Shown here one piece after another: positions 27,866-50,270 of a DNA stretch of 64,000 nt. Each line of letters begins with the position of its first letter. Within the stretch, counting starts at the first letter, position 1. Below the pieces are notes generated by a model, which was given only the letters and a program-made list of their open reading frames with translations, did no database searches and was not told the DNA's origin. The translations under genes were made by a program, and so were the position numbers. The stretch covers positions 606,001 through 670,000 of the forward strand of contig NZ_CP156081.1 of NCBI RefSeq assembly GCF_039830135.1, given 5' to 3'. Origin of the DNA: Defluviimonas sp. SAOS-178_SWC (GTDB lineage Bacteria > Pseudomonadota > Alphaproteobacteria > Rhodobacterales > Rhodobacteraceae).

Positions 27866-27928
27866 TGGTGCCTTGCAAAGACGGGGCGCCGTGGGTAGCA
27901 CGAGGTCCGAATGGGACCGGAGGGTCAG

Positions 27929-29011
27929 ATGGACGTATTGGACGCGCTGAAGGGCAAGTATCTGGGCGGGATCGCCGGGGCGGGCGACGAGGCCGCGCTG
28001 GAGGAGATCCGGCTGGCGGCGCTTGGCAAGAAGGGCGAGATTTCCCTGAAGATGCGCGAGCTTGGCCAGATGGCGCCGGAGGCGCGGCAGGCGGCCGGCG
28101 CGGCGCTGAACGCGCTGAAGGACGAGATCGACACCGCGCTTCGCGCCAGGAAGGCGGGGCTGGCCGACGCCGCGCTCGACGAGCGGCTGAAGGCCGAGTG
28201 GCTTGACGTGACGATGCCGGGTCGGCCCCGGCGGCAGGGGACGATCCATCCCGTCAGCCAGGTGACCGAGGAAGTCACCGCGATCTTCGCCGACATGGGC
28301 TTTTCGGTCGCCGAGGGACCGCAGATCGAAAGCGACTGGTACAATTTCGACGCGCTCAACATCCCGCCGGAGCACCCCGCGCGGCAGGAGCATGACACCT
28401 TCTTCATGGCGCGCGAGGCGGGCGACAACCGGCCGCCGCATGTGCTGCGCACCCATACCTCGCCGGTGCAGATCCGGTCGATGCAGACCCACGGCGCGCC
28501 CCTGCGCGTCATCGCGCCGGGCCGCGTCTACCGGATGGACATGGACCAGACCCATGCGCCGATGTTCCACCAGATCGAGGGCCTCGCCATCGACCGCGAC
28601 ATCTCCATGGCCAACCTCAAATGGGTGCTGGAGGAGTTCTGCCGCGCGTTCTTCGAGGTCGATCACGTCGAACTGCGCTTCCGCGCCTCGCACTTCCCCT
28701 TCACCGAACCTTCGGCCGAGGTCGACATCCGCTATTCCAATGTCGGTGGCGCGCTGAAGATCGGCGAGGGCGACAAGTGGATGGAGATCCTCGGCTCCGG
28801 CATGGTGCATCCGAAAGTGCTGGCGGCGGCGGGGGTGAACCCCGACGAATGGCAGGGCTTTGCCTTCGGGCTCGGCATCGACCGGATTGCGATGCTGAAA
28901 TACGGGATTCCGGATCTCAGGGCGTTCTTCGAGTCTGACCTGCGGTGGCTTAGGCACTACGGCTTCGCGAGCCTCGACATGCCGACGGTGGCCGGGGGGC
29001 TGAGCAGGTGA
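27929..29011 (+). CDS. pheS: Phenylalanyl-tRNA synthetase alpha subunit
   Basis: 360 aa from the ATG at 27929 (GGAGGGTC upstream); an in-frame ATG six codons earlier is possible. The catalytic subunit of the alpha2-beta2 enzyme that charges tRNA-Phe. An N-terminal coiled-coil arm is followed by class II motifs: motif 1 around [10 protein letters not shown], motif 2 [18 protein letters not shown] (in parts), motif 3 [17 protein letters not shown] (in parts). The PheRS Ser/His/Trp phenylalanine-pocket region is normal. Its TGA overlaps the GTG of an unrelated inserted ORF. Confidence 0.97.
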
Positions 29012-29496
29012 CAATCGCCAATTGGCTTGCGGTGTTCGTGCCGTTCATTGGTTTGGTCGGTGGTGCCATCGTTTACATGGTTCAGAAGGGTGTTGACCGT
29101 CAGAACCAGATTCGGAGTGAAAGAAGAGAGCTGTATCGAAAGCTCGTTGTCGACTTCAACAACGTGAATGTCAGTATCCTCAGAAGTGGTAGGTCTGCCG
29201 ACGGTTTAGACAAGCTCGTTCAATATAAGAACACTGAGGCTGAAATCCTCGTATGCGCGCCCGATCCAGTTATCTCTGCCCTCGAGGGTTTGTCGCCAAA
29301 AATAAGCATTTTTGCGAAGCATTCAAACAGTGAGAAAGCAGAAAAAGACGCAGCGTTTAACGACCTGAAAGAAAGCTATGAAGCGGCCGTCGCCGCTATG
29401 CGAAAGGACGTTTTGGGCGATACTGAGGTCACAAAGCGTGTAGTTCAGAAGTTTGCTGAAGGCTTCTGGCTGTCTGTTGGAAGGTTCCCACTATGA
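29008..29496 (+). CDS. Membrane-anchored hypothetical protein inserted between pheS and pheT
   Basis: 162 aa, GTG start. One N-terminal transmembrane helix (about residues 5-25), then a charged helical cytoplasmic part ([21 protein letters not shown]) and two helical stretches to the C-terminus. No family recognised. Codon use and base composition are clearly lower in G+C than pheS and pheT on either side, indicating foreign origin. It overlaps pheS by four bases (GTGA) and pheT by four bases (ATGA), so its translation is locked to a housekeeping operon. The ORF has no internal breaks, implying selection. The role could be host-defence or mobile-element related, but that is inference from context only. 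Confidence 0.75.
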
Positions 29497-31901: not shown

Positions 31902-31919
31902 AGCGCAGGCGCCGGCCTC

Positions 31920-32150
31920 TCAGCCGGTCTGGTCGCCGGCGCCGTCCGGCATGGGCTGTGACCTGAGACCCGAGGTCCCTCCAGCCCTTGGGAGAATCCG
32001 TCGGTTGCGCGGCTGCCCGTGGCTCTCGTGGTGGAAGCGTTTGACGGTCAGCGAGAAAACGATCCCGCGGACCGTTTTCTGATCCGCTTCACCTTCCTTG
32101 ATCATGTGGTTCATCCGCGCGACCTGGCCATCGGTCCAGGTATGGTGGCT
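31920..32150 (-). mobile_element. IS481-type transposase remnant with an internal insertion
   Basis: In one minus-strand frame the sequence reads TWTDGQVARMNHMIKE, then 15 unrelated residues, then TVKRFHHESHGQPR. The two parts match the adjoining conserved stretch W-T-N-G-Q-V-E-R-M-N-R-T-I-K ... T-V-K-R-F-H-Y-x-S-H of DDE integrase-core IS481 transposases. The insert of about 45 bases contains an imperfect palindrome (GAAAACG ... CGTTTTC around CCGCGG). A stop codon lies just upstream and the C-terminus is unrelated, so only about 40 residues survive. No terminal repeats were found. It marks the left edge of the island. Confidence 0.6.
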
Positions 32151-32169
32151 TGCTCAGGACACATCGGTG

Positions 32170-33123
32170 TCATTCCCTGGCGTCGAGCGCATCCTTTGCT
32201 GTGTGAAAGGCAACGCTGTGCCGTGCGGTCTCGTCAACGCGAAGCCGGAACACATCGGGGCGGGCATAATGGCCAACGACGTCGAAATCGTAGCGCGCTC
32301 GTGCGATATCGTCGCGGTCACATTCCGCCAGCAGCAGCCCCTTGGTCCCGCGCAGAGGCCCTGCCAGAACATCGCCCAAGGGCCCCAGGATAACGCTGCC
32401 GCCGGAAATTAGATCCTCGTCCTCGGGCCAGTTGGCGACCGTCTTGCCCGACACCAGCGGCGCGGGCTGGAACTGGCAGGCGCTGACCACGAAACAGCGG
32501 CCTTCCAGCGCGATATGTTGCATCGTCGACTGCCAGGCATCGCGAGCGTCCACGGTCGGCGCGCACCAGATCTCCACACCGTTGGCGTAAAGCGCGGTGC
32601 GAAACAGCGGCATGTAGTTTTCCCAGCAAATTGCGGCGGCGGTACCCGCAGGGGTTTCGACCGCGGGCAGGGTCGATCCATCACCTTGGCCCCAAATCAG
32701 CCGTTCGGTTCCCGTGGGCATCAACTTTCGATGCATGGCGGCCAGCCCGTTGGCGGGGTCGATAAAGACGGCGGTGCAGTACAACGTGCTCGCCTCGCGT
32801 TCGATCACACCCGCGACGATCGTTGTGCCTGTGCGTGCGGACAAGCCGCAGAGCGCGCCGATCTCAGGGCCGTCCAGATCCATCGCCGCCGCGAAATACC
32901 GGCGAAATGCCTCGCGCCCTTCGGGCCTACGGAACTCCAGTTGCGTTCCGAAGTCGTCGCCTTTGGGATAGCCGCCCAGGATCGCTTCGGGCAGGACGAG
33001 GATATCGGGCCGCGCCGCGGCAATCTCTTCCTCGAACGAAAGAATGTCGTCCAGCGTCGCCTGCGGACCGGCGGGCGACGCGCCGATTTGCAGTGCGGCA
33101 AGGCGGATTGTCGATGAGATCAC
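32170..33123 (-). CDS. Nitrilase (carbon-nitrogen hydrolase superfamily)
   Basis: 317 aa. The catalytic triad is complete: Glu46 (LPEAILGG), Lys133 (HRKLMPTGTERLIWGQGDG in parts) and Cys166 (CWENYMP). The PTGTER-WGQGDG and CWEN motifs are those of true nitrilases (nitrile to carboxylate and ammonia), rather than amidases. The start is a GTG at 33123 with TAGGAG upstream. It is the last gene of an operon with an M20 amidohydrolase and amino-acid ABC parts, which suggests uptake and breakdown of an amide- or nitrile-bearing nitrogen compound. Confidence 0.88.
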   Translation of the reverse strand: MISSTIRLAALQIGASPAGPQATLDDILSFEEEIAAARPDILVLPEAILGGYPKGDDFGTQLEFRRPEGREAFRRYFAAAMDLDGPEIGALCGLSARTGTTIVAGVIEREASTLYCTAVFIDPANGLAAMHRKLMPTGTERLIWGQGDGSTLPAVETPAGTAAAICWENYMPLFRTALYANGVEIWCAPTVDARDAWQSTMQHIALEGRCFVVSACQFQPAPLVSGKTVANWPEDEDLISGGSVILGPLGDVLAGPLRGTKGLLLAECDRDDIARARYDFDVVGHYARPDVFRLRVDETARHSVAFHTAKDALDARE

Positions 33124-33138
33124 GGGGATTGTCTCCTA

Positions 33139-34311
33139 TCAGGCGGTCAGGAACCGTTCGGCCAATCGCGCCCAAAGGGCTGCGCCGGTCGTCAGGCTGG
33201 CGTCGTTGAAATCATAGGACGGATTGTGAAGCGGGGCGGATCCTTCGCCGTTGCCCAGCCGGATGAAACAGCCGGGCTTGTGCGCCAGGTAGTGCGAGAA
33301 ATCCTCACTTCCCGGGATCAGGGGGCATTCGGACACGTTGTCGGCCCCGACCAGTTCCCGAGCGACGTCGGTCGCGAAGGCGGTTTCCTCGGGGGCGTTG
33401 AACACGACGGGATGACCGCTGTCATACTCGATCTCGGCCCGCGCGCCCCATGAGGCGGCCTGCGCCTCGACGATGCTGTAAATGCGTTCCTTGATTAGCG
33501 CGCGGGTTTCTGCCGTGAAGGTGCGCACGCTCAATGTGAGCCTCGCCTCTTGGGCGATGACATTGGTGGCGGTGCCGCCGTGGAAGGTTGCCACTGTTAC
33601 GACGGCAGTTTCAGTCGAATCCACGCTTCGCGAAATGATCGTCTGCAAGGCCATGACCAGTGCGGCACCCGCGACGACGGGATCGATGCACAGATGCGGT
33701 CGCGCCGCGTGCCCGCCCTTGCCGTACAGAGTAATGGCTACGGTATCGGCGGCAGCCATGAGCGGTCCCGACCGCATCAACACGGTGCCGGCTGGCGCTC
33801 CGGGGTGGTTGTGCAGGCCGAATATCGCGTCGCAGGGGAACCTTTCGAACAGACCGTCCGCGATCATGGCGGGGGCGCCGCTTTGCGCACCCGCTTCTTC
33901 GGCAGGCTGAAAGGTCAGGTTCAGCGTGCCCGAAAAGTTACGGTTGCGCGCAAGATATTCCGCCGCGCCCAGCAACATGGTCGTGTGTCCGTCGTGGCCA
34001 CAGGCATGCATTACCCCGGGTACGGTACTTGCGTGGGGCTTGGATTGGGCCTCGTGAATGGGCAGGGCATCCATGTCCGCACGGATCGCGATTGACCGGT
34101 TCCCGTCTCCGACCTGCAAGCGGCCCACCACTCCATGTCCGCCCACGTTGCGCGTTACTTCGTAGCCCAAGCCTTCCAGCTTCTCCGCGACGAATGCGGC
34201 TGTATTCGCTTCGTGAAACGACAGTTCGGGGTGCGCGTGCAGGTGATGGCGCATGCCGAACATGTCCGCCTCGGCGTCCTTGAAATCTTTGATCGCGGCA
34301 TATTTGGTCAT
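33139..34311 (-). CDS. M20-family amidohydrolase (aminoacylase/hippurate hydrolase type)
   Basis: 390 aa. Metal-binding motifs are present: RADMDALPI, HACGHDGH and QPAEEAG, plus HNHPG and the C-terminal SEDFSHYL. Enzymes of this group remove N-acyl groups from amino acids (hippurate, N-acetyl amino acids) or act on IAA conjugates. The dimerisation lid domain (about residues 185-300) is intact. A stem-loop (GGCCGCG/CGCGGCC, 34321-34339) sits just upstream of its start. It lies between the ABC ATPase and the nitrilase in one operon. Confidence 0.88.
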   Translation of the reverse strand: MTKYAAIKDFKDAEADMFGMRHHLHAHPELSFHEANTAAFVAEKLEGLGYEVTRNVGGHGVVGRLQVGDGNRSIAIRADMDALPIHEAQSKPHASTVPGVMHACGHDGHTTMLLGAAEYLARNRNFSGTLNLTFQPAEEAGAQSGAPAMIADGLFERFPCDAIFGLHNHPGAPAGTVLMRSGPLMAAADTVAITLYGKGGHAARPHLCIDPVVAGAALVMALQTIISRSVDSTETAVVTVATFHGGTATNVIAQEARLTLSVRTFTAETRALIKERIYSIVEAQAASWGARAEIEYDSGHPVVFNAPEETAFATDVARELVGADNVSECPLIPGSEDFSHYLAHKPGCFIRLGNGEGSAPLHNPSYDFNDASLTTGAALWARLAERFLTA

Positions 34312-34360
34312 GAGCGTTCAGGCCGCGCTCTGCGCGGCCCGCCTTTCTTCGTTAATCAAA

Positions 34361-35110
34361 TTAAAGTACGCGGCGTAGAAATTCGCGGGTGCGTGCACGC
34401 TGCGGGTTGACCAAAATGTCCTCCGGCTTGCCCTGCTCCACGATGTGACCGCCGTCCATGAAGACGACGCGATCCGCGGCTTCACGCGCAAAGCCGATCT
34501 CGTGAGTCACGACGATCATCGTAAGCCCCTGTTCGGCCAGCCCGTTCATCGTAGCCAGCACCTCTCCCACCAACTCCGGGTCCAGTGCCGAGGTCGGCTC
34601 GTCGAACAACAGTATCTTGGGCTTCACGGCCAACGCTCGGGCTATCGCCACGCGTTGCTGTTGCCCGCCCGACAATTGCCTGGGATAGGCATTCAGCTTG
34701 TTGGCCAGCCCCACGCGTTCTATCAGGGCGGTCGCCAACTCGATTGCGTCACGCCGCTTGACACCGTGAACCCCGACGGGTGCTTCGATGACGTTTTGCA
34801 GAACGGTCATGTGCGGAAACAGGTTGAAGCGTTGGAACACCATGCCGATCTGGCTGCGCTGCCGGGCAATCGCCGCCGACCCTAAAGCCACCAGCCCGTT
34901 GCCATGCAGCTTGTAGCCGATCTGTTCGCCATCCACTTCGATGAAACCCTTGTCGATTTCTTCTAGCCGGTTGATGCAACGCAGCAGCGTGGATTTTCCG
35001 GAGCCGGATGGGCCAAGGATGGCGACGACTTCGCTCGGAGCGACGTCCAGGTCGATGCCCTTGAGAACGTCGTTGCCGCCGAACGACTTGTGGACGTTGC
35101 GCGCCCGCAA
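34361..35110 (-). CDS. Polar-amino-acid ABC transporter ATP-binding protein, native start deleted
   Basis: About 249 aa if a TTG at 35110 is used. All ATPase motifs are intact: [29 protein letters not shown] and the switch His (VTHEIGF). It matches GlnQ/HisP-type ATPases. Immediately upstream, without any permease gene, comes the middle of a solute-binding-protein gene in another frame, so a deletion has fused the two. The ATPase has probably lost its native initiation codon; the TTG precedes RARNVHKSF, the expected N-terminal strand. Without a permease it has no known partner here. Confidence 0.75.
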
Positions 35111-35129
35111 GATCGCGGCCCGTGTCTGC

Positions 35130-35524
35130 GGGGTTGCCCTTCTGCACGGCAAATACGACGTATTCCTGCACCCAGTCCACGAAGTCGTTCGCATCGCGGC
35201 GTTTGGGGAAGTCGCCGACCGGGCCCATGGCGAACTGATACCGGTTCGAGCCGATCCCGGTCAGCAGAGCGGGCAGGCCTGCAACCGTGGCATGCTCGAT
35301 CTCGACGCCAAGGATCTGAGAGATTTCCTTTGCCAGATCGGCAGTGGCCCCAGTGTGCTCCTGGCCTTCGACGAATTCATAGGGAGGAAAGGATCCGTTG
35401 GTCACGGCGATCATGGATCCCGCCTCACGAATTTCCTCGGGTAGACGCGCGTTCAGTTCGGCGCTGATTCCGAACAGGAATACAGCGCCGAAAGCGCCAG
35501 GCTGAGTATTGGTAGTTTGTTCAT
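35130..35524 (-). pseudogene. Amino-acid ABC solute-binding protein fragment, frameshifted and 3'-deleted
   Basis: An ATG at 35524 with AAGGGAG upstream starts a signal peptide (MNKLPILSLALSAL), which runs into a stop after 24 codons. A second frame picks up inside the signal peptide and continues through NARLPEEIREAGSMIAVTNG, PPYEFVEGQEHTGATADLAKEI (in parts) and [12 protein letters not shown], a typical SBP_bac_3 N-terminal lobe. Shortly after QKGNP the coding sequence is replaced by the ATPase gene. So the gene carries a frameshift in the signal peptide and has lost its C-terminal lobe, together with the permease(s) that would have followed. Confidence 0.75.
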
Positions 35525-35549
35525 GGTCTTCTCCCTTTAGGCAATAAGG

Positions 35550-36482
35550 TTAGGCGACCATCCTCGCGGAACTCGTGGAACCGAATACCTCCTCGACGTC
35601 CAGCAATCTTGGCAAAATTGCCTGCTCGTGCATCTGACTGATGAAGTCGGATATCATCTTGCGGTTCGCCTCAAGGCTGCTCGCATCCCAAGATGCGGGC
35701 AGGGCTTTTGCCGTGAACAACATTTCCTCCAACATGAAGGGTGTCGTATCGGCGTATCGGCGGCGTTTGGCCGTCCACATCTCGCGCGAACGGTCGATCA
35801 GGTCGCTCAGCGCCTGCGGGGCCCAAGGATGGGCCTGCGCAAGAGCGCGATCCATGGTCAGAACGTGAATGCCGGGAACATAACCGACAGCATCGAAATT
35901 GGCCAGCTGCGCGGCCCGGCAATCGGGAATCGATTGGCGAAACTCGGAACTCCGCGAGAAGAAGCCTGCCGGCATGAAAGGCGTGAACACCGCGTCCAGC
36001 CATCCACGCGACAAGCTGTCCATCATCGGCTCTTCGTTCGGCATAGGCTCGATCCGGCCTGGCAGGCCAAACCTGCCCAAGCGATCTTGTATCGGATGGT
36101 CGGCGGTCAGGCGTCCGGCATACCAGTAGGCATCCTCCGTCTGGATGCCCGCATGCCGCAGGATCGCCCGGGTCCACGTATTGCCGGTGTCCTGCCATCC
36201 GGTCACACCAATACGACAACCGGCAAGGGACTCGATCGTCGTCAACGGACTGTCGGCCCGGGTTATGATGCACGCATGGCGGAAGCCGCGCATAAGAAAG
36301 TTGGGGATGGCGTCGGTGGTGGCCTCACCCTGCGCCAAGGTCGTCAGATGGCGGCTGAAAGAAGCTTCGCCCGCGTTGTAGGGCGATGCGCCACCGATCT
36401 CGACTGGCATGGTCGCGATGCGATCCACCTCGACCGTCAGATCGGGCGACTTCACATCGCCCAGAATCAGCGGTGCCAGCAT
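35550..36482 (-). CDS. Orphan substrate-binding protein (phthalate-decarboxylase/NMT1-like fold)
   Basis: 310 aa from the ATG at 36482. Segments such as YNAGEASFSRHL, PNFLMRGFRHACIITRADSPL (in parts) and GVTGWQDTGNTWTRAILRH (in parts) resemble the 4,5-dihydroxyphthalate decarboxylase-like and NMT1/nitrate-type binding proteins. No signal peptide is visible, suggesting a cytoplasmic enzyme or a truncated N-terminus; the open frame upstream runs through the neighbouring gene's antisense and is not coding. First gene of the degenerate minus-strand operon, 25 bases before the broken amino-acid binding-protein gene. Confidence 0.65.
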   Translation of the reverse strand: MLAPLILGDVKSPDLTVEVDRIATMPVEIGGASPYNAGEASFSRHLTTLAQGEATTDAIPNFLMRGFRHACIITRADSPLTTIESLAGCRIGVTGWQDTGNTWTRAILRHAGIQTEDAYWYAGRLTADHPIQDRLGRFGLPGRIEPMPNEEPMMDSLSRGWLDAVFTPFMPAGFFSRSSEFRQSIPDCRAAQLANFDAVGYVPGIHVLTMDRALAQAHPWAPQALSDLIDRSREMWTAKRRRYADTTPFMLEEMLFTAKALPASWDASSLEANRKMISDFISQMHEQAILPRLLDVEEVFGSTSSARMVA

Positions 36483-36501
36483 AGCGCCCCGCCCTTTTCG
36501 G

Positions 36502-37578
36502 GTGTCGGCCCAGGGGCACTTTTCTCCCAGTACGCGCAACCTGACGCTGTCGGTGCCAGACCTGGCGTTGCTGCCAGAACTGGATCGCGCGCTGTTGCAC
36601 GGCGCGCGATCAGAGAACCTCAACAGCTACGAACGGGTGCGCACTCTGCCCGAACTCGAACAGGCGCTCAGACCGTCATGGCCATTCAAATCGGCGGCCA
36701 TGCTTGCGACCAACGGCGGCTACAATGCCGTTTACCTGTCGCTACACGCGCTCGTTCCGCCCGGCTCCGCGGTTGCGGTGGAGATGCCCGCCTCCATGCG
36801 GCTGCTGGACATTCTGGAAGATCTGGGCGCGCGGATCATTCCAGTCGCAAGCGATCGGTTCGGCCCTGAACCGGCAGCGCTCGGGACCGCCCTGGCGCAG
36901 GATCCGGTGGCGTTCGTATTCCAGCCCGTCCTCAGCTCTGTGACGGGACATTACTGCACTGTGGAACGGTTGAGCGAATTGGGCGACGTTCTGGCCGCCA
37001 GCGAAACCTTGATCATTGAGGACGACGGGCCGGGTGACATCGCGATGGCGCCGTCCCAGTCGCTGGGTGACCGTTTGCCGGATCGGGTCATACATATCCG
37101 TTCGTTCTCCAAATCCTACGGGCCGGATTTGCGGATGGCGGTTCTGTCCGCCTCCGAAACGTTGGTGGATCAGGTGCAGTCCTATCGTGCTTTCAGTGCC
37201 GGCTGGACCAGTCGCATCCTGCAATCGGCCGTGGCCTGGCTCGTGGGCGATGAGGCGACGCGCAGCGCAGTCCGAACGGCCGGACAGATTTACCGCAATC
37301 GGCGAAACATGTTTGCGCAGGCCCTACGCGACCGCGGTATCGACGTGCCCGATGGCGGCGGGCTCAGCATTTATCTGCCGGTCCATGCCGAAACCTTCGC
37401 GCTGATCACCCTGGCAGCCCACGGCGTCTCCGCCCTTCCGGGCGAAAGCTTTTCACTTGCCCCGACGGGGCATGTACGGCTGGCGACCGGGCGGCTGACC
37501 CAAGCAGAATTACCGGCGTTGGCCGATATCGCCCGCCTTGCCGCCGCCGAACCCTTCGAGATCGGCACGAGTCCCTAG
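36502..37578 (+). pseudogene. MocR-type regulator remnant: aminotransferase domain without HTH
   Basis: The frame (GTG at 36502, about 358 aa) encodes a class I aminotransferase-like domain typical of MocR/GntR regulators: NLTLSVPDLALLPELDRAL, SYERVRTLPELEQAL, MLATNGGYNAVYLSLHAL, and IRSFSKSYGPDLRM around the PLP lysine. The winged-helix GntR domain and linker that should precede it (about 100 residues) are missing, and the 5' end abuts the start of the divergent binding-protein gene. It is therefore probably a truncated MocR regulator of the divergent operon. A free-standing aminotransferase is less likely because it begins abruptly within the domain. Confidence 0.65.
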
Positions 37579-37590
37579 CTGTCTGATCCC

Positions 37591-37624
37591 ATGGATCAAT
37601 GGTTCGATCCATTCGCTTGAATGG
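37591..37624. promoter_or_regulatory. Two overlapping inverted repeats after the MocR remnant
   Basis: ATGGATC...GATCCAT (37591-37612, 8-base spacer) overlaps CCATTC-GCTT-GAATGG (37609-37624, perfect). They lie 13-46 bases after the MocR stop. They may be an operator or a degenerate terminator. The rest of the gap to 38048 (about 420 bases) shows no convincing gene. Confidence 0.3.
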
Positions 37625-38048
37625 AAGGAAGCACCAAGGGGCAAGGTCGTCACGGCTGCGCCATGACAAAGCATGCGATCAGAGCAACCGTACGGGGATC
37701 GCAAGTCTCGACCGCAGCGATAAGCCGGGAGTTGGACAACAATCCGAAGGCCGTCGCCAAGTGACGGCTCCGTTAAACAATACGGGGGATACCCTTGCCC
37801 TATCCGGTTTTCAGGGGCGCACGGAATCGCAAGCGGTATTGTTGGCTCTGTCGGAAGAACCTGGGTTTAGCCGGGGCAGGGCGCCAGCTGGTGTTCAGGC
37901 TCGGTCAAGCCCAGACCCATTGAGTGGTTCAAGGCACGCCGATCCGGCATGTCCCGTCAACGGCCGGGTTTGCCAGACGAGCGGCGACGCACTAACCTAT
38001 CCGGCGAGGAGGCCCGGAATCTCGAAGAAGAAGAACCATATCGATACC

Positions 38049-40907: not shown

Positions 40908-42275
40908 TTGGACAAGTCGCCGAACAAAGACGTTGTCGATCAACCCGATATCTTCGGGGACGAGTTGTCGCCGGGAACGGAACTGTGCGGCGGGCAATAC
41001 ACGATCGACTCCTATCTGAATTCCGGCGGATTCGGGGTCACCTACCTTGCGCGCGACAGCCTCGGCCGGAAAATCGTCATCAAGGAGTGTTTCCCCGGAG
41101 CGATCTGCTGCCGTACGCGGCAGACCGTGCGGCTTCGCTCGAAGGGCGGGGAGCAGGAATTCGGCAAGATCCTCGAGCTTTTTGAAAAGGAAGCGCGCGC
41201 CCTGTCGGAACTGCAGCATCCCTACATCGTCGGCGTCCACCAGATCTTCAAGGACAACGACACCGCCTACATGGCGCTCGACTTCATCGACGGGCGCGAC
41301 CTCCTCCAGGTGATCGAGACGGAGCCGGGCCGGCTGAGCCCCGCAGTGATCAAGGATCTCCTGCTCAAGGTGCTCGATGCCGTAGCTTATATGCACGACA
41401 ACGACATACTGCACCGCGACATTTCCCCCGACAACATCCTGCTCGAAGCCGACAATTCGCCGGTCCTGATCGATTTTGGCGCGGCGCGCGAAAGCGCGAC
41501 GCAAGTGAGCCGGGTGCTCTCGAAGGTGCTGACCGTCAAGGACGGCTACTCGCCGCAGGAATTCTACCTTGCCGGCAGCGAACAGGCCTATTCCAGCGAT
41601 CTCTACGCGCTGGCCGCGACATTCTATCACCTGGTGTCGGGCAAGGCACCGCCCAGCAGCCAGGTGCGGCTTGCTGCGGCGGCGAAAAAGCAGAAAGACC
41701 CGCTCGAACCGCTGACCCCGCAAACCGTCAGGGGCTATGACCGCTATTTCCTCGAGGCCATCAACCGTTGCCTCAGCATATTCCCGGCCGAACGGCTCCA
41801 GAATGCGCGGGAATGGCGCGACCTGATCGACACTGAACGTCGCAAGCGCCTGCTGCTGGAACAGGCCCAGAACGACCGCGAGATGGAAAAGCGGGTTGCG
41901 CAACTCGTGCAGGATTTCGAGCATCAGGCGCAGTTGGAGCCGTCTGTTGCCGCGCCGCGTGAATCATCCGAGCCACGGGCCGGGGCGGGCGTTACGGCCC
42001 GGCGGGTGCTGGCGACCTCCGGACGCGGCAGCGCCCGGGAAGACAAAACCGCTCGTGGCAAAACCGATCCGGAGCCGGAGACCTATGCGGACATTCCGGC
42101 TTCGTCGATGTGGAATGTCGTCCCGGTCGACGATCCGGCCGATGAGCCAGAGATCGAAGAAGTCGAAAGCCCAGAACTCCCAGATACGGCGTTCAACCGT
42201 TTCTTCGCCGGCTCACGTGTTTTGCGCATCTTCGGGGTCACCGTCGGCCCAAGACTGAAAGAGGTGAGAAGGTGA
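40908..42275 (+). CDS. Ser/Thr protein kinase, first gene of the GTPase operon
   Basis: 455 aa, TTG start preceded by CCAGGG. A Hanks-type kinase domain spans residues 30-315: Gly loop LNSGGFGVTY, Lys59 (VIKECFP), Glu95, HRD at 169-171 with Asn176, and DFG at 189-191, so it should be active. A basic/coiled linker (about 320-350) and an acidic tail follow, with the segment MWNVVPVDDP and a short C-terminal RVLRIFGVTVGPR. No transmembrane helix is evident, so it is probably cytoplasmic or recruited. Four-base overlap with the FHA gene. Its targets are probably the neighbouring FHA protein and the GTPases, by analogy with kinase/FHA/PP2C triads. Confidence 0.9.
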   Translation: MDKSPNKDVVDQPDIFGDELSPGTELCGGQYTIDSYLNSGGFGVTYLARDSLGRKIVIKECFPGAICCRTRQTVRLRSKGGEQEFGKILELFEKEARALSELQHPYIVGVHQIFKDNDTAYMALDFIDGRDLLQVIETEPGRLSPAVIKDLLLKVLDAVAYMHDNDILHRDISPDNILLEADNSPVLIDFGAARESATQVSRVLSKVLTVKDGYSPQEFYLAGSEQAYSSDLYALAATFYHLVSGKAPPSSQVRLAAAAKKQKDPLEPLTPQTVRGYDRYFLEAINRCLSIFPAERLQNAREWRDLIDTERRKRLLLEQAQNDREMEKRVAQLVQDFEHQAQLEPSVAAPRESSEPRAGAGVTARRVLATSGRGSAREDKTARGKTDPEPETYADIPASSMWNVVPVDDPADEPEIEEVESPELPDTAFNRFFAGSRVLRIFGVTVGPRLKEVRR

Positions 42276-43144
42276 GATCTCTGAGGGACGTCATCGTGCG
42301 CAAACGACCCCTGCCGCCGTCCGAGAAGACGCGCGATACGGGTGATGCGGAACAGGTTTCCGATTTCTTCGATCTCGTTGCCATGCGCGAGAAGCTCCAG
42401 GAACCCGACGGCGCCGGGGAACAGACGACGGGGTCGCGTGCCGATCCGCCGCAGGAGGAGGCGTCGGTAGAGGCCGAAGCGCCCGCCAGCCCCGCCACGA
42501 AGAAGCAGATATGGGACATCGAGCCGGACGAACGCGACGAGGATACGGCCCGCTTGGCGCAAAGGCCGCAGAGGCGTGCGCCCGAGGGTCGGCATGCGGA
42601 TGAAATGCTGCCGGCACGGGCCCTGACGGGGCTGGAACGCGACGGCGGCAAAGGCCCCGCGCTCACTGGCGCGGCGCGGGTGAAGACGCGGATCATCGGT
42701 TTCCACGCCGGCGGCGCTGAAAACGACGTCTTCGCCGCCGACCGGGCAACGCCGTCCGCGAGAGGCCAATATCCGGTCGGCTGGCTGGTGGTGGTCGACG
42801 GTCCGGGACGGGGCGCGTCGTTCACGATCGGGACGGGCGTCTCGACCATCGGTCGTGGCGCGGACCAGACGGTTTGCCTCGATTTCGGCGACACCAGCGT
42901 CTCGCGCGAGAACCACGCCCTGGTCGCCTACGATGACGAGCAGAACAAGTTCTTCGTCGGACATGGCGGCAAGTCGAACATCGTTCGCCGGAACGGCAAC
43001 CCCGTGTTGGCGACCGAAGATCTCGCCGATGCCGACCTGATTCGGATCGGCAAGACGACCCTTCGTTTCGTGGCTTTGTGCGGACCGGATTTCACCTGGG
43101 GCCCGACGGAAGACAGGCAGGAAACCGATGCCCGGGAAGACTGA
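42272..43144 (+). CDS. FHA-domain protein
   Basis: 290 aa, GTG start overlapping the kinase stop. A long polar, probably disordered N-terminal region (residues 1-165) contains VSDFFDLVAMREKL, IWDIEPDERDED and TRIIGFHAG; the C-terminal FHA domain (170-270) has the STIGRG, SVSRENHALV and GKTTLRF strands that bind phosphothreonine peptides. It is likely the phospho-dependent adaptor of the operon, possibly phosphorylated in its tail by the kinase. The IWDIEP motif echoes MWNVVP in the kinase tail. It overlaps the phosphatase gene by 17 bases. Confidence 0.88.
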   Translation: MRSLRDVIVRKRPLPPSEKTRDTGDAEQVSDFFDLVAMREKLQEPDGAGEQTTGSRADPPQEEASVEAEAPASPATKKQIWDIEPDERDEDTARLAQRPQRRAPEGRHADEMLPARALTGLERDGGKGPALTGAARVKTRIIGFHAGGAENDVFAADRATPSARGQYPVGWLVVVDGPGRGASFTIGTGVSTIGRGADQTVCLDFGDTSVSRENHALVAYDDEQNKFFVGHGGKSNIVRRNGNPVLATEDLADADLIRIGKTTLRFVALCGPDFTWGPTEDRQETDARED

Positions 43145-44024
43145 GATTGCGATCGACGCCGCGTCGGCGCTGTGTCTCGGCGCGCGGTCTCGTCAGGAGG
43201 ACGCGCTCGCGACCTCGTTCTCGCTGGGCTCCGAACTCGGTTTTGCGGTGCTGTCGGACGGTATGGGCGGACATGCCGCCGGGGATGTGGCGAGCCGGAT
43301 CATCGTCGCCGAGATCTTCGCCGAGCTGACGCTCGGGGTTGACGATCCCGGCTTGGCCGAAGCCGAATTGCCGGAGCTTCTGCGCAGCGCGGCAAACGTC
43401 GCGAACCGCCGCATCCGCGCGCGGATCGACGCGGCGCCCGAGACCGCCGGGATGGGCGGCACGGTGATCGTGGTCGTTGTGATCGAGGACCGTCTCTACT
43501 GGCTGTCGGTCGGGGATTCGCCGCTCTATCTGTTTCGCGACGGGCAGCTCACGCGCCTGAACGACGACCATTCGCTTGCTCCGCAGATCGACCTGATGGT
43601 CAGGGAGGGCCTGATCGACCCGGAAGTGGGCCGCAATCACCCTCAGCGCAATTGCCTGACCTCCGCGCTGATCGGCGGCGAGATCCCTTCGATAGATTGC
43701 CCGGACCAGCCGTTCACGTTGCGGAGCGGCGATCTGGTGCTGGTCGCCAGCGACGGCCTCCAGTACCTGCCCGACGATCGGATCGCGGCGGTGCTCGGGC
43801 GGACGGGCGGCGAGCCCAGCGCCACGATTGCCGGCGCCCTGATGGCGGGTGTCACGGGGCTGGCCGACCCGGAACAAGACAACATCTCGGTCATCGTGCT
43901 GAAGGCGACCGACACGGCGGCTGAACGGCGTCTGGCGCCGATCGCCTGGTTGTCACCAGCGACCATACTGCGTGCATGGACCGGCGCGATCGCACCGGCG
44001 CGGCACCTCGGGACAAGGAGCTGA
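43128..44024 (+). CDS. PP2C-family protein phosphatase
   Basis: 298 aa. The metal-binding motifs of PPM phosphatases are present: RQED (22-25), LSDGMGGHAAGDV (from residue 42), LSVGDSPLYLF, ASDGLQYL and DNISVIVL. It should remove phosphates from Ser/Thr residues placed by the kinase, making the switch reversible. Soluble except for a slightly hydrophobic C-terminal stretch (LAPIAWLSPATILRAW). Part of the eight-gene operon; its TGA is five bases before the next start. Confidence 0.92.
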   Translation: MPGKTEIAIDAASALCLGARSRQEDALATSFSLGSELGFAVLSDGMGGHAAGDVASRIIVAEIFAELTLGVDDPGLAEAELPELLRSAANVANRRIRARIDAAPETAGMGGTVIVVVVIEDRLYWLSVGDSPLYLFRDGQLTRLNDDHSLAPQIDLMVREGLIDPEVGRNHPQRNCLTSALIGGEIPSIDCPDQPFTLRSGDLVLVASDGLQYLPDDRIAAVLGRTGGEPSATIAGALMAGVTGLADPEQDNISVIVLKATDTAAERRLAPIAWLSPATILRAWTGAIAPARHLGTRS

Positions 44025-44028
44025 TCCC

Positions 44029-45249
44029 GTGGCATCGCTCGCGCCCTGCACCTGGAAGACGCTGGACGAACTCGAGGCTGTGCTCGGCTCTGCAGCGATT
44101 CCCCCGCGGATTGCCCGAAGCTGCGAAGAGCTTGTCGAGAGACTGCGCCGTCCGGTCCGGGTGGGGCTAATCGGGTTCGAAGCCCGGCAGCGCAAGCGCC
44201 TTCTCGGCGCGCTTCTCGGGATCGAGGTTCTGCCGGACCGGATGACATGGCCCACCGTCGAGATCGGCTTTGCCGAGCGGCCGCACACCAGGGCAACGCT
44301 GGCCGACGGAAGTACCCTCGCCGCCGAAGGACTGCCGCGCGCCGAACTTCTCGGGCAGGAGCCGGTCTTCCTGAAGATCGGGGCTCCTGTCGACGCGCTG
44401 CGGCGCATGACGTTTCTTCACCTCGCGGCCGGCGAAGACGCGGAGGAACAGTCGGCTGCCTTGCGCTGGGCGGCGCGCCGGATCGACTTTGCCCTCTGGT
44501 GTACCCGCGACTTCTCCGCGCTCGAGGCCCGGATTTGGAACGCGGCCGCGCCTGAACTGAAGAACCACGCCTATCTTGTTGCCTTCGCGCCGGAAGCCGG
44601 GGCCGGCAGTCTCGGTGCCCGAACGCCGCCGGATTTCGAACGGGTGGTGTTCCTGCCGGACGAAAACGCCAATCGCGGATCCGATGATGCGGATATGAAG
44701 GCCGGCGCCCGCAGGCTTTTCGATAAGCTCGCCGCCGATATAGATGATGCCGTTGCAGAAGACCTCGATGCCGCGCGTTTGCTGCTGCGTCAGTGCGATC
44801 AGGGGATCGCCGCGCCGGGGCCGGATGCGGGCCCGACGCCCGTCGATGTCGATCGCCCGTCCCCGGTGACGGCGGATCGATCGGACATACCCGCATCGTC
44901 CGACCTCGCCGGGCTTCTTTCCGAACCGCTCCTCTATCTCAGGCGTACCTCGCGCGACCTCTTCGAGGCTTTGGAATGGCACGACGCGGACTCCCCCGAC
45001 TGGGCGGGCGACGTCCTGGAACGCTGCTGCGAAGTCACTGACGGGCTTCGGGACCGCGCTGCGGACTGGCCGGAAGACGAAGAGCCGGTGCTGGCGCTCC
45101 GGGGGATGATCGACGATGCCGCCGATATGGCGACGCTGCTCCAGATCGAGGGCGGCCCCGAGCAGGCGCAGGACGCGGCCGCGCTCCTGCTTCAACTCCG
45201 TTCCGCGTTCGAGGCAAGCCTGGTGCGTTCCGCAATGCCCCTGAATTGA
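44029..45249 (+). CDS. Degenerate GTPase-like protein (pseudo-GTPase)
   Basis: 406 aa, GTG start with AAGGAG nine bases upstream. The first 190 residues follow the pattern of the intact small GTPase encoded two genes later: RVGLIGFEARQRKRLLGALLG (in parts) sits where that protein has the P-loop GEFSAGKST, LHLAAG replaces DMPG, and FALWCTRDFSALEARIW matches AVIWCTPATQAWRQSEAAL. The Lys-Ser of the P-loop, the DxxG and the N/TKxD motif are all lost, so nucleotide hydrolysis is not expected. The C-terminal half is helical and acidic. A scaffold or regulatory partner of the real GTPases is likely. The homology is judged by eye. Confidence 0.7.
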   Translation: MASLAPCTWKTLDELEAVLGSAAIPPRIARSCEELVERLRRPVRVGLIGFEARQRKRLLGALLGIEVLPDRMTWPTVEIGFAERPHTRATLADGSTLAAEGLPRAELLGQEPVFLKIGAPVDALRRMTFLHLAAGEDAEEQSAALRWAARRIDFALWCTRDFSALEARIWNAAAPELKNHAYLVAFAPEAGAGSLGARTPPDFERVVFLPDENANRGSDDADMKAGARRLFDKLAADIDDAVAEDLDAARLLLRQCDQGIAAPGPDAGPTPVDVDRPSPVTADRSDIPASSDLAGLLSEPLLYLRRTSRDLFEALEWHDADSPDWAGDVLERCCEVTDGLRDRAADWPEDEEPVLALRGMIDDAADMATLLQIEGGPEQAQDAAALLLQLRSAFEASLVRSAMPLN

Positions 45250-45260
45250 GGAGATCGACG

Positions 45261-47339
45261 ATGAATGCCGAACGAGATACCGCAGGGGCAGTCGACGTAC
45301 CCGAGGGCGACCTGATCCGGTCGGCGTTTTCCGGACTGCAATCATTCGCGGAACGTATCCAGAAACTCGATACCGCGGTGGACGCGATCGCCGATGCCGG
45401 CGGAGACACCGCCCGCGCTGCGACGCGGAAGCTCAAGCGTCAGATCCGGAGCTTCGAGCCTTCGGTGACGATGATCGGACAGGTCAAGGCCGGCAAGACC
45501 ACCTTGGTCAACGCACTGGCGGGCTGGCCCGGCCTCTTGCCAGCCGACATCAATCCGTGGACCTCGGTTGTGACCTCGCTCCACCTCGATCCCGCAACCC
45601 GCACGGGTTCGGGAAAGGCGAAGTTCCGATTTTTCGACGAAGAGGAATGGGCCCGGCTGCTCAACAGGGGCGGGCGCGTGGGGGAACTTGCGGCCCGCGC
45701 CGGCGCCCACAAGGAACTCGAGAAGGTGCGGCGCCAGCTTGAGGAGATGCGCGAGAAGTCGCGCCAAAGGCTCGGCCGGAAGTTCGAGATGCTCATGGGG
45801 CAGGAGCACGAATACGGCTATGTCGACGAGGAACTTGTGCAGCGCTACGTCTGCCTCGGTGACGATGCCGGCGACCAGGGCGGCGCCAGCCAGCAGCAGG
45901 GCCGGTTCGCCGACATCACGAAGTCGGCCGACCTCTATCTCGGGCAACCCGACCTGCCGCATCGGCTCTGCATCCGCGACACACCCGGTGTGAACGACAC
46001 GTTCATGATCCGCGAGCAGATCACCGTCAATGCCATCCGCGAGAGCCGGCTGTGCGTCGTGGTGCTGTCCGCGCACCAGACCCTGTCGACCGTCGACATG
46101 GCGCTGATCCGCCTGATCTCCAACATCCGCTCGCGCGAGGTGATCATCTTCGTCAACCGGATCGACGAACTGAACGATCCCGTTCGGGAGACGGAAGAAA
46201 TCCGCAAGAGCATCGTTTCCACCCTCGACGCGCTCAACGGTCCGACCGATGCGGAAATCATCTTCGGCAGCGCGTACTGGGCGGTCCACGCCTTGGCGCA
46301 GACCTACAAGGATCTGGGCAAGGCGAGTTCGAAGGCGCTGATCGACTGGGCGGAACACCGGCTGAACTCCGGCGAGGTTCCCGGAACGGTGCAAGAGACG
46401 ATCTGGAAGATCTCGGGCATTCCGGCGCTCTGCGCGGCGATCTCCTCCCGGATCGATTCCGGCGAGGGGGCCGAGTTCGAGGAGCGCATCGTCCGCTCTG
46501 CGCGGAACGTCGCGACCAGCATCGAGGCGTCTCGGCAAGTCACGGCGAAACGCATCGACGGCGATGCGGTGGCGCCCGTCGCGCCCGCCGATATCGGCCG
46601 TGAACTCGACGCCATAGCCGCGCGCAGCCTCGGTCTTCTTGATGCCGAGATGGGCAAGCTGATCTCTGGGCTCGACAGCCGTCTCGCGGGCGCGCGCCGA
46701 TCCTTCCTTGGCCGCGCGACAGCCTCTCTGATCCGCCACCTCGAAGACTTCGGCGATCACGAGATCTGGCAGTACGATCCGGCGGGGCTGCGGCTCCTCC
46801 TGAGCTCGGCCTACCGGGTCTTTTCGGCAAAGGCGGTGAACACCAGCGAGAAGATCTTCGCGACCACCGCCGACGAGATCCGGACACTCTATATCAGGGC
46901 GTTCCAGATTTCCGAAGACACCGCGGCGATCGAGGCCCCCGTGGTGCAAAACCCGCCTCCGCCGGTCATCCTCGGCAGTACGATCGCGCTGGATGTAAAG
47001 GGGAACTGGTGGACGAGCTGGTGGCGTCGCCGGAGAAGTTACCAGATGTTTGCCGAGGAGTACTCGGCGCTGATCGACGCCGAGATCGAGCCCTTCCTGG
47101 TCTCTCTCCGCGCCGATCATGCGGAGACCTTTTCTCTCGCCACCAGGCAGATCCTCACGGAATTCATCGACGCCCAGCGGGCGCACCTTCTCGAACTCGC
47201 GAACCAGACCGAGATCGGGGTCGACAAGCTCAGGCAGCGCGCCGAAGCGGCCGCGACGGATCGACGGAACACGCTCAACGACACCGTCGTGTTCCTGTCC
47301 GAATTGAAACCGCGAAGCGAATGGAGGGCTGCGGAATGA
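45261..47339 (+). CDS. Dynamin-family large GTPase
   Basis: 692 aa. The start ATG at 45261 is chosen over an upstream in-frame TTG because AGGAG precedes it. GTPase motifs are complete: GQVKAGKTT (from residue 73), DTPGVND (240-246), NRID (299-302). A coiled-coil stretch (about 150-175) interrupts the G domain; the long helical remainder resembles bacterial dynamin-like proteins, with a Trp/Arg-rich patch (WWTSWWRRRRSY) about two thirds along that could touch membrane. Such proteins fuse or remodel membranes. The stop overlaps the next GTPase gene. Bacterial dynamins often work as pairs, which fits this arrangement. Confidence 0.85.
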   Translation: MNAERDTAGAVDVPEGDLIRSAFSGLQSFAERIQKLDTAVDAIADAGGDTARAATRKLKRQIRSFEPSVTMIGQVKAGKTTLVNALAGWPGLLPADINPWTSVVTSLHLDPATRTGSGKAKFRFFDEEEWARLLNRGGRVGELAARAGAHKELEKVRRQLEEMREKSRQRLGRKFEMLMGQEHEYGYVDEELVQRYVCLGDDAGDQGGASQQQGRFADITKSADLYLGQPDLPHRLCIRDTPGVNDTFMIREQITVNAIRESRLCVVVLSAHQTLSTVDMALIRLISNIRSREVIIFVNRIDELNDPVRETEEIRKSIVSTLDALNGPTDAEIIFGSAYWAVHALAQTYKDLGKASSKALIDWAEHRLNSGEVPGTVQETIWKISGIPALCAAISSRIDSGEGAEFEERIVRSARNVATSIEASRQVTAKRIDGDAVAPVAPADIGRELDAIAARSLGLLDAEMGKLISGLDSRLAGARRSFLGRATASLIRHLEDFGDHEIWQYDPAGLRLLLSSAYRVFSAKAVNTSEKIFATTADEIRTLYIRAFQISEDTAAIEAPVVQNPPPPVILGSTIALDVKGNWWTSWWRRRRSYQMFAEEYSALIDAEIEPFLVSLRADHAETFSLATRQILTEFIDAQRAHLLELANQTEIGVDKLRQRAEAAATDRRNTLNDTVVFLSELKPRSEWRAAE

Positions 47340-48337
47340 CGGCCGAGTTCATGTCCGTAAACCCGGTATTGCGCCGGAAACCCCGGATCGTCCTGATGGG
47401 CGAATTCTCCGCAGGCAAGAGTACCCTGGCAAACCTGTTGATGAACGATGACTATTCGCCCGTGCAGGTGACGGCGACACAGATGCCGCCGGTCTGGTAT
47501 GCGCAAGGTGACGGCCCCGCGCTTCGCATCGCGATGGACGGGTCGGAAGAACCGCTCGACTCCGATGAGGCCGGCGCGATCTCGGTCCGCAACACCCGCG
47601 CGATCCGGAAGTTCGTGGCGGCCGAAATTCTCGAAGCCTGCGACATCATCGACATGCCCGGCAGTTCCGACCCGAACATCACCGAAGACATCTGGCAGCG
47701 CATGTTGCCGCTGGCCGACGCGGTGATCTGGTGTACGCCCGCCACACAGGCCTGGCGCCAGTCCGAGGCGGCGCTGTGGGAGGAAGCGCCGGGGCGCCTG
47801 TTCCCGCGAAGTCTGCTTCTGATCACCCGTATCGACAAGGTCTTGTCCGAGGCGGACCAGCGGCGCCTGATTGGCCGCGTTCAACGGGAGGCGGGCCCGA
47901 TGTTTCGCGAGGTCATCCCGGTGTCTCTCATCGAGGCACAGGACGCCGTCGACGACCCGGACGCATGGCGTTCATCCGGTGTGGAGGCCGTACTGGCCGG
48001 GCTGGGGGAGATCATCGCCGAGGTCGAACGGGGCCTCGCCTTAGAGCCGCAGACCGATCCTTCGGACCTGTTCGCCGCGAACCCGGTGGAACCCGATGAG
48101 GTCGGCGCGGAGGCGCCCATGCAAATCCATCCCGCACCCGTTGAGCCTGCGCCTGTTGCGCCCGCACCCGACGATGCCGACACCGTCGCATCCGCTCCGG
48201 ATGCGGCCGCCGCCATGCCTGAAGCCGCGGAGGAGGCGCCGACCGTCCGGGTGGTGCCGAGGCGCGTCGTGGCGCGAACGGGCGGGCAGGCGCAGAGCCA
48301 ACGGCCCCGCCGGGCTGCAACCGGTTCGCTGATCTAG
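47336..48337 (+). CDS. Small dynamin-type/Era-like GTPase with acidic Pro-rich tail
   Basis: 333 aa. The ATG at 47336 overlaps the dynamin stop; the open frame before it is antisense-free dynamin sequence in another frame. Motifs are intact: P-loop GEFSAGKS (22-29), DMPGSSDPN (from 106), TRIDKV (164-169). The G domain (about residues 15-230) resembles the GTPase head of dynamin-like proteins but lacks the long stalk. A Glu/Pro/Ala-rich tail (about 240-310) ends in a basic segment. It is probably the partner of the large GTPase, and the closest relative of the degenerate GTPase two genes upstream. Confidence 0.85.
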   Translation: MTAEFMSVNPVLRRKPRIVLMGEFSAGKSTLANLLMNDDYSPVQVTATQMPPVWYAQGDGPALRIAMDGSEEPLDSDEAGAISVRNTRAIRKFVAAEILEACDIIDMPGSSDPNITEDIWQRMLPLADAVIWCTPATQAWRQSEAALWEEAPGRLFPRSLLLITRIDKVLSEADQRRLIGRVQREAGPMFREVIPVSLIEAQDAVDDPDAWRSSGVEAVLAGLGEIIAEVERGLALEPQTDPSDLFAANPVEPDEVGAEAPMQIHPAPVEPAPVAPAPDDADTVASAPDAAAAMPEAAEEAPTVRVVPRRVVARTGGQAQSQRPRRAATGSLI

Positions 48338-48428
48338 CCGCGTGGTCCGCGGCGGTCCGGGCTTGTCGCGACCGGCCGGTTGACGCAAGATCGCGCTCTG
48401 ACACCAGAGGAAGCCAATCGGCCAGCCG

Positions 48429-48782
48429 ATGACCCCAACTGCACTCAATGCCTTTCGCCGGAATGTCCGGGACTGTGAACTCGCGGTCTACGTGGATCTG
48501 GACTCGCGGACCGTGCTCAGTTCCGACGGCGCCTTGCAGTTCCCGCAGGAATACCTCGACGCGCTGTGCGCCTGCGCCGCCGACCTGTTTGACGCGGCAC
48601 CGAAAGGCGAGGGGCCGGTCGAACATGTGCTGTTCCTGTCGCCAACAGGCAGCCGGAGCTTCTTCCGGAACCTGGCAGAACCGAACGAGGCGTTGTGCTG
48701 CATGTGCGCGGCCGAGGTCGCCGTGGAAACGCTGATCGAAAACGCCCGCGCGGCCCTTGCCGGCGGAGCGTCCGCGCAATGA
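48429..48782 (+). CDS. Small Roadblock/LC7-like protein
   Basis: 117 aa. The alternation of strand and helix (AVYVDLDSRTVLSS, HVLFLSPTGSRSFFRN, VAVETLIENARAAL) is compatible with a Roadblock fold, a common regulator of small GTPases in bacteria (for example MglB). A specific family was not recognised. It begins 91 bases after the GTPase gene, the largest gap inside the operon, and its stop overlaps the next gene by four bases. Confidence 0.6.
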   Translation: MTPTALNAFRRNVRDCELAVYVDLDSRTVLSSDGALQFPQEYLDALCACAADLFDAAPKGEGPVEHVLFLSPTGSRSFFRNLAEPNEALCCMCAAEVAVETLIENARAALAGGASAQ

Positions 48783-49585
48783 GCGATTTCGGACGGGTGA
48801 AGGCAACGCTCAGGCGGGCGGCGCGGGACGGAGCCGGGCAATCGGGCCGGGTCGAGTATGTGACCGCGCGGGACGGTGTCGCGCGCATCCTCGACGAGGT
48901 CGATGTTTCGGTCCTTGGCCAGCGCCTCGGTTTCGAGTTCGACGACGGGTCGTGCCTGCGCTGCGAAGCGTCGGGGCGACGGTTGCTGCGGTTGCTGGCG
49001 CCACGCCCACCGGGCTTGACGAAAGAGCAGATGGCGCTCTTCGACCGCGATGAACTGGCCGCCGACACCGCGCCGGTGCTTTCCAGCCTCTTCGTCCGCC
49101 TCTGCGAAAGAGGCGCCGGATTTTCCCGCACCGCAGAACCGATCGGCGGGGGAGCCGACCCTGCGCCGGGCGGCGTCGAGCCGGCGGCGATCGCCGAGGC
49201 GGCGGGCTTGCCGGTCGGATCTGTGCCCGAAACAGGCGAGGCCACGCCGCACGCGGCGTTCCTCGACGCGCTCCGACCGATGTTGCGGGCCGCGATCCTG
49301 ATCGACGGCGACGATTCCTCGCTGATCCTCGGCGGGGAGGAGGAGGCGGCGTTGCTCGTCGACTGGGTCGAGAATTCCCTTGTGAACCTGCTGTCACCCG
49401 GCTTTGCTTTGCTTGGAACACTCGAAACGAACGGGATTCTGGTCTTCGACTTGTCCGAAGCGGCCGGACGCCACATGCTGGTGGCCGGCCGGCGCGGCAG
49501 CCTCCTGGTTGCGACGGTGAAGGGCGGCGACGCGGCGGCGACCCTCAATCTCTGGCGGACGCACTCCCGATCAAGGTCCGCTTGA
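48779..49585 (+). CDS. Hypothetical protein, last gene of the GTPase operon
   Basis: 268 aa, ATG overlapping the preceding stop (ATGA). The N-terminal half has a compact region (VLGQRLGFEFDDGSCLRCEASG in parts); the C-terminal half (AILIDGDDSSLIL through VFDLSEAAGRHMLVAGRRGSLLV in parts) again has the strand-helix pattern of a Roadblock-like domain. No signal peptide or transmembrane helix. Family not recognised. Translational coupling to the Roadblock-like gene makes a shared complex with the GTPases plausible. Confidence 0.6.
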   Translation: MSDFGRVKATLRRAARDGAGQSGRVEYVTARDGVARILDEVDVSVLGQRLGFEFDDGSCLRCEASGRRLLRLLAPRPPGLTKEQMALFDRDELAADTAPVLSSLFVRLCERGAGFSRTAEPIGGGADPAPGGVEPAAIAEAAGLPVGSVPETGEATPHAAFLDALRPMLRAAILIDGDDSSLILGGEEEAALLVDWVENSLVNLLSPGFALLGTLETNGILVFDLSEAAGRHMLVAGRRGSLLVATVKGGDAAATLNLWRTHSRSRSA

Positions 49586-49627: not shown

Positions 49628-50270
49628 TCAACCGCGCAATCTTGCGCCCGCCGGGTCGAATGCCGGTTCGGCGAGGATGACCCCGCGATGCGGCCGCCCC
49701 AGGACGGCCACCGACACCGCGGTTCCGGCGACCGCGCTTGGCGTCTTGATGAAGCCGAGCGCAAGCGACTTGCCGACCGAGAAGCCATAGGCGCCGGAAC
49801 TGACCGGGCCGGCCGGCGAACTGTCGGGCAGTAAGATCGGCTCACCGCCCGAAGCGTCGGCGATATCCGCCTCCACCTCGATCATCACGAGTTTTTCGCG
49901 CGGGGCCTTTTCGGCCAGCGCGGCATAGGCCGCCTTGCAGAGGAAGTCGGGCTTGTCCATCTTGATCAGCCGGTCGAGGCCCACTTTCGGCGGACAGTAT
50001 TCGGGGCTGTATTCGCGGTCCCATGCCCCCGTATCCCGTCTCCGCCTCAAGCTCCTTGTAGAGCTTCATCATGCAATACCGGATCTTGGAGATGTTGTTG
50101 TTGTCGTGCAGGCCCTGGATGTTCGCAGCCGCGTCGCAGGCGGAGCCCGAAGTGAGTTTGTCGCGCTCCAGCAGCACCACATCGGTCCAGCCGAGCTTGG
50201 CGAGATGGTAGAGGATCGAACATCCGACCAACCCGCCACCGATCACGACCGCCTGTGCATGCGTCTTCAT
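49628..50270 (-). pseudogene. Dimethylglycine/sarcosine dehydrogenase gene with large internal deletion
   Basis: The ATG at 50270 starts a normal FAD-dependent oxidoreductase N-terminus: AVVIGGGLVGCSILYHLAKLG (in parts) with the GxGxxG dinucleotide motif, continuing to about residue 80. At about 50035 the sequence jumps, in another frame, to the C-terminal GcvT-like domain (CPPKVGLDRLIKMDKPDFL, SSGAYGFSVGKSLALGF, PHRGVILAEPAFDP). An intact enzyme of this type has about 800 residues, so some 600 have been deleted. It is non-functional. Both halves are otherwise well preserved, so the deletion looks recent. Confidence 0.8.

Follow-up and report, generated by a model that had tools for sequence, protein, structure and literature searches.

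A conserved kinase, FHA, PP2C, dynamin and Roadblock gene set in Rhodobacteraceae with a possible role in dynamin control at the cell envelope

Gene content of the locus

The window, that is, the whole stretch of 64,000 nucleotides that was analysed, carries eight same-strand genes at 40908..49585 on the plus strand, in the order KIN, FHA, PP2C, GT4, DYN, SGT, RB7 and RB8. Six of the seven junctions overlap or leave no more than 11 bases, and SGT and RB7 are separated by a gap of 91 bases, which confirms the uninterrupted and mostly tight plus-strand run reported in the preliminary description. Pfam matches were obtained for the kinase, the FHA protein, the phosphatase and both dynamins (DYN and SGT). 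No Pfam match was found for GT4, RB7 or RB8. A consensus scan of the operon stretch showed no excess of promoter-like sites (1 versus 0.8 in shuffled sequence) or of terminator-like sites (5 versus 6.4).

The first gene, KIN (40908..42275, plus strand, as are all eight), has a TTG start and encodes a Ser/Thr protein kinase of 455 aa (Pkinase, 1.6e-31). The HRD and DFG motifs are kept in 75 of 77 orthologues. A simple hydropathy test identified no TM-like stretch in the window copy, which is thus predicted to be soluble. The FHA protein (42272..43144; 290 aa; FHA, 1.2e-5) carries the motif RVKTRIIGF, N-terminal to its FHA domain. The pattern of this motif is present in 67 of 76 orthologues, and its threonine, Thr139, is invariant in the FHA-protein alignment (24/24 rows). 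In NCBIfam, the protein scored 30.4 bits against OdhI and 31.8 bits against FhaB, both under the cut-off. OdhI and GarA are FHA proteins whose own FHA domain reads their N-terminal phosphothreonine; by analogy with these proteins, and because the motif is so widely kept, Thr139 is a candidate switch site. The PP2C-type phosphatase (43128..44024; 298 aa; PP2C_2, 5e-11) retains DGMGGH in 82 of 84 orthologues.

The fourth gene, GT4 (44029..45249), encodes a dynamin-related GTPase of 406 aa. It had been described as degenerate, which holds for the window copy, where the P-loop is gone, and for only a part of the family, since 59 of 82 orthologues keep it. DYN (45261..47339) encodes a large bacterial dynamin of 692 aa (Dynamin_N, 1.1e-11; 45.5 bits over a 27-bit cut-off), with profile matches to the C. 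jejuni DLP (5owv, 4.9e-9) and the Nostoc BDLP (2j68, 1.7e-7). The P-loop and DTPG are present in all 98 DYN orthologues. A conserved Trp-rich basic segment lies near residue 583, with WWxxWW in 91 of the 98; this segment and the dynamin family membership suggest that DYN acts on the membrane. SGT (47336..48337; 333 aa), previously taken for a small GTPase, is corrected to a short second dynamin (Dynamin_N, 2.1e-9; 38.1 bits), and the P-loop is present in 83 of 85 orthologues. In relatives, tblastn gave cross-matches between the GT4 and SGT queries. None of the Ras, Arf and Roc families exceeded its Pfam cut-off in any of the eight proteins, the best being Roc in SGT (13.5 of 27 bits).

The last two genes had both been put forward as small Roadblock-like proteins. 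For RB7 (48429..48782; 117 aa), this agrees with a predicted Roadblock/LC7 fold that is MglB-like. For RB8 (48779..49585; 268 aa), it applies to half of the protein at best, as residues ~150-268 are weakly Roadblock-like and the N-terminal half carries no assignment.

Directly past RB8, on the minus strand (49628-50270), two ORFs overlap in different frames. The first carries an N-terminal portion of an FAD-dependent oxidoreductase (DAO), and the second a glycine-cleavage T-protein C-terminal domain. The pair looks like what is left of a disrupted and strongly shortened gene bordering the operon. Elsewhere in the window, the G+C content falls to ~0.60-0.64 in parts of 26000-38000, a stretch that includes phenylalanyl-tRNA synthetase genes and an ABC transporter and looks ordinary.

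Conservation, distribution and mobility

One genome per species was scanned with DYN, and the best 80 of at least 486 relatives were kept. By title, these belong to Rhodobacteraceae, to Rhodobacterales or to genera placed there, except for one that is given only as Alphaproteobacteria. The exact eight-gene order was present in 58 of the 63 loci among these best 80 that had enough flank to be assessed; KIN, FHA, PP2C, GT4, DYN and SGT were each present in 63/63, RB7 in 61 and RB8 in 60. As the best 80 had been picked by closeness, a draw of one locus per genus, spread evenly over the order Rhodobacterales, was added (33 loci fetched, 31 assessable). The exact order was observed in 21 of these 31. 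Five genera had DYN and SGT alone (L133, L135, L139, L140 and L147), so the pair can presumably work without the regulators. The other non-exact loci comprised one without RB8, one without KIN, one reordered with all eight genes, and two with a second DYN, a different order, and FHA/PP2C missing within the stretch. Overall, the kinase, FHA, PP2C and a Roadblock gene accompany the dynamin pair in 24 of the 31 genera. The exact order was also found in five of seven further loci and in seven of the 16 assessable among 20 nearer-relative loci. SGT lay beside DYN in every assessable locus of the four sets (63/63, 31/31, 7/7 and 16/16).

GT4 and RB7 were jointly present or absent in all 31 one-per-genus loci and in all seven further loci; in the other two sets, they were present in 63 and 61 of 63 loci and in 11 and 12 of 16 loci, respectively. 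Based on the joint presence and absence in the former sets, the Roadblock protein may bind GT4, which would be its likeliest client among the GTPases.

Across 244 genomes of the order, DYN was present in 83 (35 of 100 genera) and the FHA family in 79. Both were present in 76 genomes, DYN without FHA in seven and FHA without DYN in three (Fisher p ~1e-50, kinship not corrected for). Where both were present, they lay within 15 kb of each other in 73 genomes and within 5 kb in 59. The neighbourhood check proposed in the preliminary description therefore finds the kinase triad and the GTPase genes usually together. When compared across 49 loci, the pairwise distances of the eight proteins were correlated at 0.62-0.92 (mean 0.80), against at most 0.15 in 100 label shuffles; vertical descent by itself would produce such a correlation too. 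A chance gene run was rejected on the conservation of gene order and the co-occurrence of DYN and FHA, and it is well supported that the eight genes travel and are inherited as one unit. A constant ninth member was sought and rejected, as no outside gene cluster within 3 kb was shared by more than 16 of the 80 loci on the upstream side or 11 on the downstream side.

A DYN search of a draw of 289 genomes of the class gave two matches, and a draw of 299 genomes of the phylum gave eight; all were in the window's family, Rhodobacteraceae, with the window's own genome counted in. On these draws, the eight-gene unit is confined to this one family, where it is often carried. L021 and L022, the closest carriers, have none of the genes that flank the operon in the window, at the threshold used and over 3-6 kb on each side, and in 5/5 relatives the aldehyde dehydrogenase and regulator genes that neighbour it in the window occurred without an adjoining operon. 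The operon changes place between near relatives. On plasmids, DYN has matches in 18 records (Leisingera 12, Ruegeria 5 and Rhodobacter 1), and the eight-gene order was present in three Leisingera loci among four plasmid loci examined. In the annotations of these three Leisingera plasmids, RB7 and RB8 are hypothetical, and GT4 is hypothetical in two and zeta toxin family in one. The latter (L185, 12607-13842, Leisingera sp. S132 plasmid) is named 'zeta toxin family protein' in RefSeq, probably from the P-loop alone; its place among the eight genes speaks for a GTPase.

Envelope-linked variants and proposed mechanism

A TM-like segment was identified by the simple hydropathy test in 25 of 87 kinase ORFs, and the TM-like variants inspected have a large C-terminal part past this segment. 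One such C-terminal part was scanned with Pfam and gave solely sub-threshold PDZ matches. LysM/SBP_bac_3-family proteins, up to three consecutively, were present beside the set in eight of the 20 nearer-relative loci (L025, L026, L028, L030, L032, L033, L035 and L037), where they adjoin the kinase, FHA and PP2C genes. Five such proteins were scanned; the cut-off for LysM was passed by three of them and that for SBP_bac_3 by one. These genes are almost restricted to the genus of the window plus two loci elsewhere, with no match in L121-L160. The membrane-spanning kinases and LysM/solute-binding partners of these variants point to envelope sensing. A single query found no LysM partner in the window's own genome and, as the window kinase is soluble, the envelope link of the window copy is made via its relatives alone.

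On the reading that we favour, the unit would be a heterotypic dynamin machine that responds to the state of the envelope, is controlled by phosphorylation and by a Roadblock protein, and protects or repairs the envelope under stress; we consider the chances of this reading to be even. The complex would consist of DYN with SGT, plus GT4, and its assembly at the inner membrane would be switched by Ser/Thr phosphorylation. KIN would sense a signal from the envelope or the membrane. The membrane-spanning variants with exported LysM/solute-binding partners would do so directly, and the soluble window version indirectly. KIN would then phosphorylate its partners; in the FHA protein, Thr139 is a plausible target, which an FHA domain would read in cis or in trans, and this reading would recruit or free the DYN/SGT pair. 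RB7, perhaps with RB8, would bind the GTPases as a platform or as a GTPase activator, with GT4 as the likeliest client. DYN would cluster on the membrane via its Trp-rich basic segment and remodel or tether it, and PP2C would reset the switch. We infer every arrow between the operon proteins, as well as the envelope role. The reading is favoured by the conserved order, the co-occurrence of DYN and FHA, the correlated protein distances, the constancy of SGT, the joint presence or absence of GT4 and RB7, the retained motifs, the predicted Roadblock fold and the TM-kinase/LysM variants, and also by the profile matches of DYN, which are nearest to membrane-tethering and membrane-remodelling dynamins. 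The missing P-loop of the window GT4 counts against it, as do the five genera with the dynamin pair alone, the soluble window kinase with no LysM partner found in its genome, the near restriction of LysM/SBP genes to one genus, and the fact that vertical descent could also account for the distance correlation.

In a stronger form, which is tentative and which we rather doubt, the operon would be a dedicated dynamin control unit, in which envelope signals pass through the kinase/FHA/PP2C switch to a Ragulator-like Roadblock platform and on to two to four dynamin-type GTPases. If true, this would be a bacterial counterpart of eukaryotic signal-controlled dynamin action and a class of its own. 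To our knowledge, little is known about what switches bacterial dynamins on or off. The operon offers candidate dynamin regulators that can be deleted singly in culturable marine bacteria, and it places a Roadblock protein beside dynamins rather than Ras-like GTPases.

Competing explanations and described systems

The main rival is a phage-defence system, in which KIN would detect an infection and the dynamins would gather on the membrane, either delaying lysis or harming the membrane so that the infected cell dies. The patchy presence of the set (83/244 genomes), its differing flanks and its plasmid carriage are usual for defence genes, and B. subtilis DynA, a bacterial dynamin, is tied to membrane surveillance and to delayed phage lysis (PMC8844932). 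DynA itself differs in being two dynamins fused in one protein (PMC6104087), and none is fused here. In PADLOC, KIN matched MAD6 (2.2e-45) and PD-T4-6 (4e-44), and DYN matched LeoA (5.2e-12). However, the KIN matches reflect a widespread domain (126 bits in NCBIfam MAD6 against a cut-off of 460), and DYN scored 11.9 bits in the LeoA family NF041922 against a cut-off of 325, so that the PADLOC and NCBIfam matches are domain-level only and a named defence system was rejected. Furthermore, Pfam identified no effector nuclease, TIR, NADase or toxin domain among the eight proteins, the flanks of four annotated plasmid loci hold metabolic and transport genes with no defence gene names, and the LysM/SBP partners are a better fit to envelope sensing. 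We therefore regard phage defence as unlikely. An origin as a phage gene set was also rejected, as a phage collection gave no DYN match at E<=1e-5. A PHROGs search with six of the eight proteins yielded a single weak match (RB7, 0.0054).

A module for polarity, division or vesicle formation, in which the Roadblock protein and GTPases place the dynamins at the poles or septum and phosphorylation provides the timing, seems more doubtful still. RB7, with its predicted MglB-like fold, lies beside GTPase genes, as in the MglA/MglB (RomY) and Ragulator/Rag systems, and MglB is the GAP of MglA and is stimulated by another protein, RomY (PMC9481161), an arrangement reminiscent of RB7 with RB8. The GTPases here are, however, dynamin-related, with no Ras- or Rag-like protein recognised and no Ras-like MglA-type domain at the Pfam cut-off among the eight, and the set is accessory, unlike housekeeping division genes.

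The kinase, FHA protein and phosphatase are the three regulator types of T6SS threonine-phosphorylation control (PpkA, Fha and PppA), and the triad could be a post-translational T6SS regulation cassette beside unrelated GTPase genes; that cassette likewise holds the three within one operon. VipB, used as the single T6SS marker, was present in 16 of 36 dynamin-bearing genomes, some of them with the dynamin pair alone. It was absent from the other 20 and from the window's own genome, the completeness of which is given as 100, with the search control positive in E. coli. The nearest VipB sharing a contig with DYN was ~61 kb away, and the adjacent T6SS locus raised in the preliminary description was thus not found by this marker. 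The interpretation given there survived both of its refuting conditions and is supported in part. The triad and the dynamins also co-occur and correlate, and the unit adds dynamins and a Roadblock gene. The cassette reading was rejected on VipB; it is largely refuted and retains a very small probability.

Among described systems, the proposed dynamin machine resembles the paired dynamins (C. jejuni DLP1/DLP2, Nostoc BDLP1 and LeoABC), in which a large and a second dynamin adjoin in one operon. For C. jejuni DLP1/DLP2, pairing and membrane tethering have been shown and a repair role speculated (PMC6104087). The present unit differs in that a kinase, FHA, PP2C, third GTPase and Roadblock gene are part of it in most loci, whereas the C. 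jejuni operon is described with a beta-lactamase-like gene instead (same source). Some actinobacterial GAP1-N2 loci of the GAP1-N1/N2 conflict systems contain an active kinase and PP2C (PMC7159879), but these systems are built on GAP1, and 'dynamin' is absent from the text of that paper. No GAP1 match was found among the eight proteins in Pfam. The earlier failure to match the whole set to a named system was borne out by the PADLOC, NCBIfam and literature searches. The gene set is not described in the titles and abstracts that these searches listed from open-licence literature, which is not the same as absence in print. The parts are of known kinds; as far as the searches reach, no description exists of a phospho-switch and a Roadblock gene that regularly accompany a dynamin pair.

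Tandem dynamin pairs, arranged as DYN-SGT-DYN-SGT or with another SGT-like gene, were observed in L029, L135, L139, L147 and L154. These lack the kinase, GT4 and Roadblock genes and represent a simpler relative of the system. By annotation and position, a twelve-gene enlarged form was identified on plasmid pTHAF33_a of Ruegeria sp. THAF33 (L186, 13267-29373), in the order hypothetical, two dynamins, two hypotheticals, two dynamins, kinase, FHA, PP2C and two substrate-binding proteins.
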